From Capnocytophaga periodontitidis (GTDB lineage Bacteria > Bacteroidota > Bacteroidia > Flavobacteriales > Flavobacteriaceae): a stretch of 64,000 nucleotides of DNA. Each line of letters opens with the position of its first letter. Within the stretch, counting starts at the first letter, position 1. A model generated the notes under the pieces. It was not told the DNA's origin, searched no databases, and saw only the letters and a program-made list of their open reading frames with translations. Positions 28,643-40,599 of the stretch are shown one piece after another. Made by a program: the position numbers and the translations under genes. Where the stretch lies: positions 124,001-188,000 of the forward strand of contig NZ_JAEFDB010000004.1 of assembly GCF_016126015.1 (NCBI RefSeq), read 5' to 3'.

Positions 28643-28658
28643 TGTTCCACGTGGAACA
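28643..28658. other. parS site (ParB binding)
   Basis: TGTTCCACGTGGAACA, a perfect 16-bp palindrome identical to parS sequences used by chromosomal ParB proteins in other bacteria. First of three sites within 1.6 kb. Confidence 0.85.
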
Positions 28659-29119: not shown

Positions 29120-29135
29120 TGTTCCACGTGGAACA
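29120..29135. other. parS site (ParB binding)
   Basis: Second perfect TGTTCCACGTGGAACA palindrome, between the 28769 gene and the methyltransferase gene. Confidence 0.85.
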
Positions 29136-30062: not shown

Positions 30063-30357
30063 CTTTAAATAAGGCGTTTTTACGATACTTCTCCCTTATC
30101 AATAACTAAGTATATCACTTTTTAAAAATAACGCTTAAAAACGGCTGTAATAAAGTCGGTTTTGATAAAGTATTTTTATAGATTTTTAATTTAAAATAGA
30201 AAATGATTATTTTTAGGGAATAGGGGTCAGGTTTCACGTGGAACAATGAAAGATGAATGACGAGTGACGAATGACGAGTGATGAATGATGAGAAATAGTA
30301 TTTTACTTTTTTGAGTAATAAAATTAAAAAATATTTCATTTACACACAAAACTTTCT
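30063..30357. other. Gene-free stretch with a parS-like site and a short tandem array
   Basis: A+T-rich DNA without a convincing gene. It holds the parS-like site (30230-30245) and GACGAGTGACGAATGACGAG-type tandem units (about 30256-30292). Confidence 0.5.
30230..30245. other. parS-like site, imperfect
   Basis: GGTTTCACGTGGAACA: 14 of 16 positions match either TGTTTCACGTGAAACA or the GGAACA half of the two perfect sites. Third copy of the cluster. Confidence 0.65.
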
Positions 30358-32774: not shown

Positions 32775-35006
32775 TTATTCACTTATGAGTTCAAAGTCTA
32801 ATTGCTTTTTCATCAGGTCGGTGTTTTTCACACGTATCATTACTTCATCGCCAAGCTGATAAGTTTTGCCAGTGGCTTGTCCTACCAAGGCGTATTGTTG
32901 TTCATCGAAAGTGTAATAATCGTCTTTGATGTCGCGAGCGCGTACCAATCCTTCGCATTTGTTTACGGTAATTTCTACATAAATACCCCATTCGGTTACG
33001 CCTGAAATCACTCCTGCAAACTGCTGGTTCTTATGGGCTTCCATATATTTCACCTGCATATATTTGATAGAATCACGCTCAGCCGATGCTGCTAAACTCT
33101 CCATTTGTGACGAGTGTTTGCATTTGGTTTCATATTCGGCTTCGGGTTGTGAAGGGGCGTTATCTAAATAGAGTTGCAAAAGACGGTGTACCATCACATC
33201 GGGATAACGACGTATAGGCGAGGTGAAATGGGTATAATAATCAAACGCTAAACCGTAATGCCCTATGTTTTTAGTAGTATAAGTAGCTTTTGCCATTGAA
33301 CGTATTGCCAAGGTATCGACTAAGTTTTGTTCTTTCTTGCCCTTTACTTCTTCTAACAAATTATTAAGTGAATCGGTAGTGGTTTGACGGTTGTTCAAGT
33401 TCAAGCTATAGCCAAATCTACTAATCACCGCATTGAACTGTTGGAGTTTATCGGCATCGGGTTCATCGTGTACGCGGTATACAAATGTCTTTTTCATCTT
33501 GGCTACGTACTCGGCTACTTTTCTGTTAGCCAATAACATAAACTCTTCAATCAGTTTGTTAGCTTCCTTGCTTTCTTTGAAATATACCCCTGTAGGGTTG
33601 CCGTTCTCATCGAGGTCGAATTTTACTTCCACTTTATCAAAAGTAATAGCTCCCAAACGCATACGCTTGCCACGCAATTTTTCGGCTAAAGCATTGAGCG
33701 TGAGAATAGCTTCTACTACCTCAACAGGTACTGCACGCTCTTTATCGGTAATAGAAGTCTCGGCAGGAATGGTATACCCCTCCCCTACTTTGGATTGCTC
33801 TATTACTGATTGTGCTTCTTCGTAAGCAAACCTAAATGAAGAGTGTGTTACAGTGCGTCCTATCCAAATATCTACCACTTCGGCTTTCTTATTCATCTCA
33901 AATACTACCGAAAAGGTGTATTTATCTTCATCGGGGCGGAGTGAACAAGCGAAGTTACAGAGGACTTCGGGCAACATTGGCACTACCCTATCTACCAAAT
34001 ATACTGAAGTAGCACGGTTGTAAGCCTCTTCATCTAATATAGTACCTTCTTTCACATAATATGATACATCGGCAATGTGTACTCCTATCTCATAATTGCC
34101 ATTCTCCAAAAGTTTGAAAGACAGTGCATCATCAAAGTCTTTTGCATCACGAGGGTCGATAGTGAAAGTGAGGGTTTCACGCATATCACGACGGCGGGCG
34201 ATTTCTTCTTCGGTAATAGAAAGGTCTAACTTTTTAGCAAAGGCTTCTACCTCTTCTGGATAGGTATAAGGCAGACCGTATTCGGCTAAGATAGAGTGCA
34301 TTTCCGTAGTTTGCTCCCCTGGTTTACCGAGTATCTGTTCCACTACCCCCATAGGCGAATCGCTTTTGTCTTTCCAATCTTCTATGCGTACAATCACACG
34401 GTCGCCGTCCTGAGCACCATTGAGTTTGTCTTTCAACACAAAGAAATCAGTATACATACGAGCATCGGTAGGGACGACAAAGGCAAAGTTTTTGTGCATT
34501 TGCACAGTACCTACAAAGCGCACTTTGTTGCGTTCTAATACCTTACTGATTTCCCCTTCCATCTTATTGCGATTTCTAAAACGTGGAAATACATACACTT
34601 CTACCAAATCGCCGTGAAGGGCTTTGTTTAGAAAATTCTGTGCTACAAAAATGTCGTTGTCTAAACCATCAACTATTACATAACCATTACCTCGTGAACT
34701 CACATCAAGCGTACCCACATAATAGTGTTGCATAGGGATAGCTTGATACTTTCCGCGGTCGATTTCTACGATGCGTTTTTTCTCTTTCAGTTGTACGAGT
34801 TGTTTCACCAGCATATCACGACGTGGTGCATCGGTAATGTGAAGTTTGGCAGCAATTTGCTTGTAGTTGAACCCCTCTTCGGGGTGTTCTTGTAACACCG
34901 AGAAAATTGCTTTGATAAGCTCTTGCTTGTTGCGTTTAGCTAAACTTTTATTCTTTTTAGGTTTCCCTGATTTGCCTTGTTTTTGAGTTTTATTTGTTTT
35001 TTTCAT
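32775..35006 (-). CDS. rnr: Ribonuclease R
   Basis: 743 residues from ATG 35006 (MKKTNKTQKQGKSGK), chosen because the longer frame overlaps the promoter. Processive 3'-5' exoribonuclease that degrades structured RNA. Basic N-terminal tail, a winged-helix/HTH region (EHPEEGFNYKQIAAKLHI), cold-shock OB domains, the RNB domain with TIDPRDAKDFDDALSF carrying the catalytic Asp cluster, and a C-terminal S1 domain (FAGVISGVTEWGIYVEI). All expected domains in order. Borders the putative replication origin. Confidence 0.95.
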   Translation of the reverse strand: MKKTNKTQKQGKSGKPKKNKSLAKRNKQELIKAIFSVLQEHPEEGFNYKQIAAKLHITDAPRRDMLVKQLVQLKEKKRIVEIDRGKYQAIPMQHYYVGTLDVSSRGNGYVIVDGLDNDIFVAQNFLNKALHGDLVEVYVFPRFRNRNKMEGEISKVLERNKVRFVGTVQMHKNFAFVVPTDARMYTDFFVLKDKLNGAQDGDRVIVRIEDWKDKSDSPMGVVEQILGKPGEQTTEMHSILAEYGLPYTYPEEVEAFAKKLDLSITEEEIARRRDMRETLTFTIDPRDAKDFDDALSFKLLENGNYEIGVHIADVSYYVKEGTILDEEAYNRATSVYLVDRVVPMLPEVLCNFACSLRPDEDKYTFSVVFEMNKKAEVVDIWIGRTVTHSSFRFAYEEAQSVIEQSKVGEGYTIPAETSITDKERAVPVEVVEAILTLNALAEKLRGKRMRLGAITFDKVEVKFDLDENGNPTGVYFKESKEANKLIEEFMLLANRKVAEYVAKMKKTFVYRVHDEPDADKLQQFNAVISRFGYSLNLNNRQTTTDSLNNLLEEVKGKKEQNLVDTLAIRSMAKATYTTKNIGHYGLAFDYYTHFTSPIRRYPDVMVHRLLQLYLDNAPSQPEAEYETKCKHSSQMESLAASAERDSIKYMQVKYMEAHKNQQFAGVISGVTEWGIYVEITVNKCEGLVRARDIKDDYYTFDEQQYALVGQATGKTYQLGDEVMIRVKNTDLMKKQLDFELISE

Positions 35007-35053
35007 AGTAATTTCTTTTTTAGATGTGAGCCACACAGCAATGTGACTAAATG

Positions 35054-35061
35054 CAAAGATA
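35054..35061 (-). promoter_or_regulatory. rnr promoter core
   Basis: TATCTTTG on minus, 48 bases before ATG 35006 and only 13 bases from the first DnaA box of the putative origin. Confidence 0.6.
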
Positions 35062-35073
35062 ATCATTTTTGAG

Positions 35074-35358
35074 TTATCAACAATCTCTAAATTATAAACT
35101 GAAAAAAATATTTTTTTAAAAAAAGAAGGCTATTATTATGAGGGTGTGAATAGGAGGTAAAAAAATAGGCTTAAAAATTTGCTTTTTTCAGTTGATGTGA
35201 TTTATGATTAGTTATCAACAATAAAAAACGATTTACGGATTTTAAAATGAATATTTTAGGCGAAACTGTTGATAACCGCTCAACAACTATTCAACTGCAT
35301 TTTGTGGATAATTTTTTAAAAGGGCAATTGTGGATAACTGTTGTATCACTGTTGATAA
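35074..35358. other. Putative chromosomal replication origin (oriC)
   Basis: Six DnaA-box matches in 285 bases: TTATCAACA at 35074-35082 and 35212-35220; TGTTGATAA at 35267-35275 and 35350-35358; and the consensus TGTGGATAA at 35303-35311 and 35329-35337. An extremely A+T-rich tract (35098-35128) next to the first box could be the unwinding element. The gap between rnr and nadK is 487 bases, unusually long. Three parS-like sites lie 5-6.5 kb away, and gene direction switches from mainly minus to mainly plus a few kb to the right. dnaA itself is not in the window, which is common in this phylum. Confidence 0.75.
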
Positions 35359-35493
35359 TTTTCTAAAAAATAAATTTGCTTATTTTAGACTTGGGTTTGT
35401 ATATACGGAAAAGTGAGAGAAACAAATTTATTTATCATTTTTTTAGTAATAGTTATAAACAAGTTTTAGGAGTCAGGGGATAGGTTTCAGGAG

Positions 35494-36378
35494 TTATTTG
35501 TTTCTTCTGTCTTCACCCCAGAGTAGTTTGTATCTTAGTGTATTGATAAAACTATCGCCGTCTAATCGTATCATTTTCACTACAAAGGGTGCTTTGCGCA
35601 CAATAATAGAGTGCTTTTTGTCTACCGATTTGATATGAGAATCTAACGATAAAAGGAATTTCTTTTCCCGTCCTGAGATAGTGAGTTTAATTTCAGTATC
35701 TTCGGGGATGATGAGCGGCCGCATATTGAGGTTATGTGGTGCGATGGGGGTAATGACAAAGTTTTTAGCTGTAGGTAAAATTACGGGGCCGCCGCAGCTC
35801 AGTGAGTAGCCTGTAGAGCCTGTAGGGGTAGAAATGATAAGTCCGTCAGCCCAATACGATGAGAGGAAGTCACCGTTTAACTCAGTATCGATAGTAATCA
35901 TTGAGGCTGTATTTTTTCGTGTAACGGTAATTTCGTTGAGGGCGAAATTTATAGGGTCTACCGGATCGCCACTATCGGCATAGACAGCTTCTATCACCGA
36001 GCGTTCCACTACTTCGTAAGTTTTATCGCGCAATTGCAGAAAAACGTTTTGCAGGTCGTCTTTATGAGCATTTGCTAAAAAACCCAAACGCCCTGAATTG
36101 ATACCTAAAATAGGTATTTGTAAATTGCGGAGATAAGTAATACCTTTCAGCAGGGTACCGTCGCCCCCAATGGTGAGCATTACCTCGTACGAATTATCGA
36201 GGTCGGCAAATGAGCTAAAAGGTTTAGCTTTGAGGAATTGGTGAGAGCGGATATTCAGTTCTTTAAGGATTTCACATTCAATAAATACCTCGTCATCGGG
36301 CAAGAGGTGAGAGAAGAGTTCGCGCAGTATAGCTTCATTTTCGGTAGAATATTGTCGGATATAGATTGCTATTTTCAT
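35494..36378 (-). CDS. nadK: NAD kinase
   Basis: 294 residues from ATG 36378 (MKIAIYIRQYSTEN). Makes NADP from NAD with ATP. LTIGGDGTLLKG (GGDGT at 71-75) is the nucleotide-binding and catalytic motif; GRLGFLA, NEITVTR and TPTGSTGYSLSCGGP complete the family pattern. The promoter core TATCTTTG lies at 36399-36406. It flanks the putative origin. Confidence 0.95.
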   Translation of the reverse strand: MKIAIYIRQYSTENEAILRELFSHLLPDDEVFIECEILKELNIRSHQFLKAKPFSSFADLDNSYEVMLTIGGDGTLLKGITYLRNLQIPILGINSGRLGFLANAHKDDLQNVFLQLRDKTYEVVERSVIEAVYADSGDPVDPINFALNEITVTRKNTASMITIDTELNGDFLSSYWADGLIISTPTGSTGYSLSCGGPVILPTAKNFVITPIAPHNLNMRPLIIPEDTEIKLTISGREKKFLLSLDSHIKSVDKKHSIIVRKAPFVVKMIRLDGDSFINTLRYKLLWGEDRRNK

Positions 36379-36398
36379 TGATTTGCCAATTGGTATGG

Positions 36399-36406
36399 CA
36401 AAGATA
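36399..36406 (-). promoter_or_regulatory. nadK promoter core
   Basis: TATCTTTG on minus, 21 bases before ATG. Confidence 0.6.
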
Positions 36407-36476
36407 CAAATTAATTGATAATGAACAATTGACAATGAAGAATTTTTACTATTTTTGTTTTTTTAATCTCCAATAA

Positions 36477-39215: not shown

Positions 39216-39282
39216 CAAAGGTACGGAATAAAGTAATAGGTTATCAACAAAATTAAAATAGTTATCAACAAAGTTATTAACA
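39216..39282 (-). promoter_or_regulatory. nrdDG promoter with DnaA-box-like sites
   Basis: TACCTTTG (39216-39223) with TTG at 39245-39247. TTATCAACA at 39241-39249 covers that TTG, TTATCAACA repeats at 39262-39270, and TTATTAACA follows at 39274-39282. DnaA regulates nrd genes in other bacteria, so replication-linked control is plausible. Confidence 0.55.
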
Positions 39283-40462: not shown

Positions 40463-40566
40463 AAAAAAAGTGGCAAGCGATCTACATCGCACCGCTACAA
40501 CCGAATACCTTTGCTGTGTTCCCACCCTGGAGGATTTTTCAGGAGCTGGTCGTGTAGGACTTGCCG
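40463..40566 (-). ncRNA. ffs: SRP RNA (4.5S-type)
   Basis: A consensus promoter on minus (40570-40599) is followed by about 100 bases closed by GGCAAG ... CTTGCC and a CCTACA/TGTAG stem. The apical S-domain has the conserved loops CCAGGG-GGGAAC-ACAGCAAAGG in the form typical of Bacteroidota SRP RNAs. The RNA ends in an A/T run (TTTTTTTT on minus). It binds Ffh for co-translational targeting. A plus-strand frame crosses it but is not a gene there. Confidence 0.85.
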
Positions 40567-40569
40567 CTG

Positions 40570-40599
40570 CAAATGTACTACTTTTTTATTACATAGCAA
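40570..40599 (-). promoter_or_regulatory. ffs promoter
   Basis: Minus strand TTG (40597-40599), exactly 19 bases, TACATTTG (40570-40577). Confidence 0.75.

Follow-up and report, generated by a model that had tools for sequence, protein, structure and literature searches.

To our knowledge, replication initiation has been little studied in Bacteroidota, in which Capnocytophaga belongs to the same order as Blattabacterium. In the portions of the published accounts available to us, oriC is described as commonly lying far from dnaA in Bacteroidetes, with chromosome 1 of Prevotella intermedia OMA14 carrying a predicted DnaA-box cluster far from that gene (PMC4755523), and the predicted oriC of Elizabethkingia meningoseptica, a box cluster with A+T-rich elements, is likewise remote from dnaA (PMC8994065). 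The position of the origin need not be uniform throughout the order, however, because the Blattabacterium origin has been placed in dapB on the basis of skew, according to the available part of PMC2768785. As for how origins are located, the sections of PMC10197239 at hand use parS sites together with skew and caution against dnaA as an origin marker.

We predict, from relatives, motifs and parS sites, that the gap of 427 bp separating rnr from nadK (74% A+T; rnr starts at 35066 and nadK ends at 35494) is, very probably, the chromosomal oriC of Capnocytophaga periodontitidis. Such an origin would be an ordinary kind of feature, and its position remote from dnaA is the one expected for the phylum. 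It resembles the predicted origins of P. intermedia and E. meningoseptica in these respects and differs from them in its rnr neighbour, in a linkage to parS seen across the family and in a genus-specific 62-bp element, of which the parts of those two papers available to us make no mention. No paper on a Capnocytophaga oriC was found in the open-licence literature searched; the locus would provide a concrete origin for this genus of oral commensals and opportunists. The genome is a 3,234,769-base draft in 55 unordered contigs, and the window, i.e. the whole stretch of 64,000 nucleotides that was analysed and to which all coordinates refer unless otherwise indicated, corresponds to bases 124001–188000 of contig C33. 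The genes and sites that make up the locus are the following:

32775–35066, minus strand: rnr, ribonuclease R (TIGR02063, 737 bits against a cut-off of 598, NCBIfam), the constant left neighbour of the predicted origin
35074–35082, plus strand: DnaA box A, TTATCAACA, exact match, aligned and identical in genomes G018 and G010
35083–35140, no strand assigned: A+T-rich tract, likely unwinding region, ending in the TATTATTAT trinucleotide run at 35131–35139
35176–35188, plus strand: AATTTGCTTTTTT, just left of box B, single copy in this genome, at a similar position in relatives
35212–35220, plus strand: DnaA box B, TTATCAACA, exact match, left half of a facing pair
35267–35275, minus strand: DnaA box C, TTATCAACA, exact match, right half of the facing pair
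35303–35311, minus strand: DnaA box D, TTATCCACA, exact match
35329–35337, minus strand: DnaA box E, TTATCCACA, exact match, with a one-base difference in the G018 copy
35350–35358, minus strand: DnaA box F, TTATCAACA, exact match
35453–35461, plus strand: TTATAAACA, weak outer site resembling a DnaA box, 83 bp beyond the start of the 62-bp tripartite element
35494–36435, minus strand: nadK, NAD kinase (NF002521, 375 bits against a cut-off of 309, NCBIfam)

A preliminary description of this DNA had proposed an origin here from six DnaA boxes in 285 bases, an A+T-rich tract beside them and three parS-like sites nearby, and these observations were all borne out. Indeed, the six boxes are without exception exact copies of TTATC(A/C)ACA, two TTATCCACA and four TTATCAACA, located where they had been reported. 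The whole genome (3.23 Mb) contains 152 exact sites (92 + 60), of which at most two fall within any 500 bp outside the cluster; the cluster, which is non-coding, is therefore the densest of the genome as judged from exact TTATCMACA sites (degenerate boxes do not enter this genome-wide count), in keeping with the earlier expectation that no denser cluster would be found elsewhere. One-mismatch boxes are not in excess over the window as a whole (76 found, 79 expected), which shows that the signal is the clustering of near-perfect sites. We also considered the AATTTGCTTTTTT word as an origin-specific motif and rejected it: it has 57 matches across the 20 genus genomes, many of them elsewhere, and is not specific on its own.

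The A+T-rich tract adjoins the boxes, the 60 bp from 35080 to 35139 being 88% A+T. GGGTTATTATTA occurs upstream of rnr in 7 of the 17 genus genomes compared (G018, too close to this genome, was excluded from these word counts), and an alignment with relatives puts it at the position of the tract. This arrangement is reminiscent of the basal unwinding system (BUS), which consists, according to the available part of PMC8287927, of DnaA boxes, a spacer (at most 16 bp in the search used there) and at least three DnaA-trios: here too, boxes neighbour A+T-rich DNA containing a trinucleotide run. The locus differs from the BUS in that four trio-type patterns revealed no DnaA-trio run in the 16 bp on either side of each of the six boxes (these patterns are stricter than the one given in that part of PMC8287927, an A between any two bases, which is common in A+T-rich DNA). 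The TATTATTAT run is 48 bp away from box A, and the GGGTTATTATTA runs of the relatives are tens of bases away from the nearest consensus box. The melting of the origin at the A+T-rich tract, and its mode, are therefore proposed from the sequence.

The three parS-like sites lie 4.8–6.7 kb to the left of the boxes:

28643–28658, no strand assigned: parS site 1, two mismatches to the TGTTTCACGTGAAACA consensus
29120–29135, no strand assigned: parS site 2, two mismatches to the TGTTTCACGTGAAACA consensus
30230–30245, no strand assigned: parS site 3, two mismatches to the TGTTTCACGTGAAACA consensus

Shuffling predicts 0.37 such sites. The GTTYCACGTGRAAC pattern has exactly three matches in the entire genome, all of them at 28.6–30.2 kb of the window, and its backward control is absent from all 20 genus genomes. 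The sites themselves are not unusual (three over 1.6 kb in 3.23 Mb) and recall the parS/ParB origin domains in which a few parS sites are clustered at the origin (cf. PMC10197239, in the part available).

The association of parS with rnr extends well beyond this genome. Our genus sample comprises 20 genomes, of which 18 have an rnr match and constitute the denominator below; the remaining two are G014, where parS is present and an rnr match is absent, and G017, where neither was found. In all 18 (this genome included), parS sites are located on the rnr contig and within 20 kb of rnr, one of the three sites of G013 sitting on a second contig. We then turned to a family sample of 41 genomes, 39 of which represent other genera. 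parS was found in 38 of these 39. Among the matches listed, which cover 34 of the 39 genomes, rnr and parS share a contig in 27, always within 60 kb of each other (nearest parS about 4 to 58 kb from rnr), and are on different contigs in the other seven. This rnr–parS linkage, like the tripartite element, goes beyond the initial finding; no description of either was found in the open-licence literature, in searches aimed mostly at other points. In the Flavobacteriaceae sample, linkage of rnr, parS and the predicted origin would provide a simple origin marker for drafts and metagenomes, where dnaA misleads. As to the number of sites, Capnocytophaga genomes have three to five (none in G017), and 33 of the 39 other-genus genomes have exactly two, about 1.9–2.0 kb apart in most among the matches listed.

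To follow the boxes through the genus, we compared about 20 kb around rnr in the 18 genomes, a box being defined as TTAT[CT][AC]ACA. At least three boxes are present within 400 bp upstream of rnr in 14 of them; the exceptions are G019 and G012 with two boxes, G011 with one and G007 with none in the first kilobase. The facing pair formed by boxes B and C, with a start-to-start distance of 55–56 bp, is kept in 9 of the 18. By contrast, nadK adjoins rnr only in this genome and in G018, the right-hand side consisting of different DNA elsewhere. The boxes thus belong with the rnr side and not with nadK, since they persist in most of the genus although nadK has been replaced. Outside the genus, 28 loci were compared: the boxes number 54 upstream of rnr (1.33 per kb), 1 in the gene (0.02 per kb) and 11 downstream (0.26 per kb), loci devoid of upstream boxes (e.g. 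G038, G042 and G022) being included. Part of this contrast may come from the A+T-rich, non-coding character of the upstream DNA.

The position of the boxes directly upstream of rnr raises the question of whether they could form a DnaA-titrating site or a DnaA-regulated rnr promoter, the true origin being elsewhere in the parS region. A second, smaller box group, absent from the preliminary description, could be taken to point the same way, as it suggests that boxes may occur at promoters here too: two TTATCAACA at 39241 and 39262 and one TTATTAACA at 39274 are gathered in 42 bp (39241–39282) upstream of nrdD. However, none of the 18 genus genomes has a denser cluster within the 20 kb or so around rnr, nor does this genome for exact 9-mers, and the nrdD-side boxes do not stay with rnr, as both G013 and G009 have a box that precedes nrdD by 84 bp, at a distance of over 6 kb from rnr. 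We consequently regard a titrating or promoter role in place of an origin as improbable. The group at 39241–39282 was rejected as an origin on the same grounds; together with the nrdD-side box of these two genomes, it hints at a control of the anaerobic ribonucleotide reductase (nrdD) by DnaA.

Origins linked to dnaA are common in bacteria outside Bacteroidota, and on these general grounds the origin could be at dnaA and the rnr–nadK cluster a secondary DnaA-binding locus. This is very unlikely. The only full dnaA of the genome is on a contig other than that of the window (C1, 673322–674707), and its region is devoid of a box cluster, with a single box that falls within the gene. Moreover, in the five Capnocytophaga genomes with nearly whole chromosomes, rnr and dnaA are separated by 0.51, 0.57, 0.49 and 0.33 (G002) of the circle in four relatives and by 0.49 in G013. 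The complete sequences of G019 and G002 are numbered from dnaA, yet this gene is a third to half a circle away from rnr. A remote dnaA is also what the available part of PMC4755523 reports as common for Bacteroidetes, so that the earlier statement that origins of this phylum often lie away from dnaA has support in print and would apply here as well. In G010, G008, G019 and G013, the 0.49–0.57 of the circle between the two genes puts dnaA near where the terminus would be expected.

GC skew gives a further, uneven line of evidence. On contig C33 itself, there is no clean switch at the locus (159 kb), and the draft contigs are unordered. We therefore sampled relatives available as one or nearly one contig, using 20 stretches of 20 kb in G010, G008, G019 and G002 and 13 in G013. 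The GC3 skew of G019 reverses at rnr, being negative in 10 of 10 stretches on its left and positive in 9 of 10 on its right; the best GC3 step model has the origin 2–49 kb from rnr, with an R2 of 0.79 that was equalled in none of 100 shuffles. With plain GC skew, the break in this genome is instead 91–209 kb to the left of rnr, with an R2 of 0.52 versus 0.51 at rnr. In G002, the step is significant and the best break lies 222–302 kb from rnr (GC3 R2 of 0.63 versus 0.53 at rnr). The step fits were not significant for G010, G008 and G013, 10 to 45 of 100 shuffles being as good with the three measures; a break 7–81 kb from rnr was still obtained for G010 and, with GC3, for G008, whereas the G013 breaks were mostly at a distance of hundreds of kb. 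In G050, which belongs to another genus, mean GC3 skew is +0.064 to the right and −0.092 to the left of rnr (one-sided Mann–Whitney p 0.0015 for 20 stretches of 5 kb taken as independent), although the first two stretches to the right, within 75 kb of rnr, remain slightly negative. Skew thus backs the locus in two of the six genomes, gives approximate support in a third, G002, and carries no information on it in the other three. A dif-like pattern (GCATAA-N6-TTATG) yielded no terminus marker and was discarded, with 16 scattered matches in 7 genomes versus 28 for its backward control.

The sole dense box cluster, the adjacent parS sites, the conservation of the boxes in congeners and the skew of G019 and G050 all support the origin that the preliminary description had put between rnr and nadK. 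As for box-like words having merely accumulated by chance in a gap that is 74% A+T, the idea is hardly credible, since none of 20,000 dinucleotide shuffles of the gap reached six boxes (mean 0.015, maximum 2) and the boxes are conserved across the genus.

To the right of the boxes, the gap contains a further element that is apparently new and genus-specific, with no known counterpart found:

35370–35431, no strand assigned: tripartite element, ATAAATTTG-N19-TGTATATAC-N16-CAAATTTAT

We scored it on the 27 fixed letters of the copy in this genome, used as a template with fixed spacing. Scores of 21–27 were obtained upstream of rnr, with the spacing kept, in 17 of the 18 Capnocytophaga genomes (the template copy included); the last one, G004, was counted as being without the element, as it scores 19 of 27 upstream of rnr and 20 at an unrelated place. 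Among the 17 genomes, the motif letters are 88% identical on average, and the spacers 48% and 41%. In each of them, the element is the best place on both strands of the 20 kb or so examined. The second-highest score falls at the same place on the opposite strand in 16 of 17 (with ties elsewhere in G003 and G012), as expected because the element is near-palindromic. Other places reach at most 17–20, which leaves a small margin in G012 (21 versus 19) and G002 (22 versus 19). A strict pattern restricted to the first two parts has a single match in each of 13 of the 20 genomes, always at this locus, and its backward control has none; G001 fails this strict pattern yet scores 23 of 27 at fixed spacing. 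The element was not seen in 28 other genera, where the best upstream scores are 15–18 of 27 on the same strand, no better than the 15–20 of the downstream control, and at most 19 on the other strand.

The element persists where the consensus DnaA boxes are nearly gone (G007, G011 and G012). In six relatives, a TTAT[CT][AC]ACA box is found 83–84 bp from the start of the element, where this genome has the weaker site TTATAAACA. The outer arms of the element are inverted copies, with 53 bp, or about five helical turns, from centre to centre, a spacing that would suit a protein complex lying along one side of the helix. It is less likely that the element forms a conserved hairpin: as DNA, the copy in this genome folds no better than shuffles (z −0.99, 37 of 200 as good), and in single RNA folds the arms of several relatives pair, whereas those of G005 and G008 do not. 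For these reasons, we prefer to view the element as a protein-binding site, which would probably be part of the putative origin. Another reading is suggested by the sequence of the arms. The Bacteroidota promoter element has the consensus TAnnTTTG, and each arm resembles it, so that the element could instead be a two-way promoter. More speculatively, the element might be an obligatory and so far undescribed part of the origin, held at a fixed position between the box array and the outer box, and serving either as a docking site for an undescribed, perhaps dimeric, protein or as a two-way promoter transcribing the origin; we offer this proposal tentatively, with more doubt than confidence. The element offers a starting point in the search for a new origin-binding protein.

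If the rnr–nadK gap is oriC, initiation could proceed as follows. DnaA would bind the box array at 35212–35358, flanked by box A and the weak outer box, and its binding would open the A+T-rich tract at 35083–35140. The helicase would be loaded next, and two forks would depart in opposite directions. ParB, presumably bound to the parS sites 4.8–6.7 kb to the left, would move the fresh origins apart. The 62-bp element would most likely serve as the binding site of a protein that assists initiation, sets its timing or shields it.

Some observations concern the surroundings of the locus. The preliminary description had mentioned a change of prevailing gene direction just to the right of the cluster: such a change does exist, at 39.3–39.7 kb, but it is about 4 kb away and not at the cluster, and plus-strand ORFs are already present to the left of the boxes, at 28.8–30.9 kb. 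Some rnr matches (L044, L060, L211, L213 and L224) contain in-frame stops, one or two each, which may possibly be mere read-through at the ends of the matches. The NadK protein of the window is 97% identical to that of Capnocytophaga sputigena NCTC11653. Rfam gave no match at gathering scores at the rnr–nadK locus; elsewhere in the window, it revealed a Bacteroidales small SRP RNA (RF04183, 99.9 bits) at 40467–40573 on the minus strand. This RNA overlaps the start of an opposite-strand ORF at 40470, so that this ORF may not correspond to a gene throughout.
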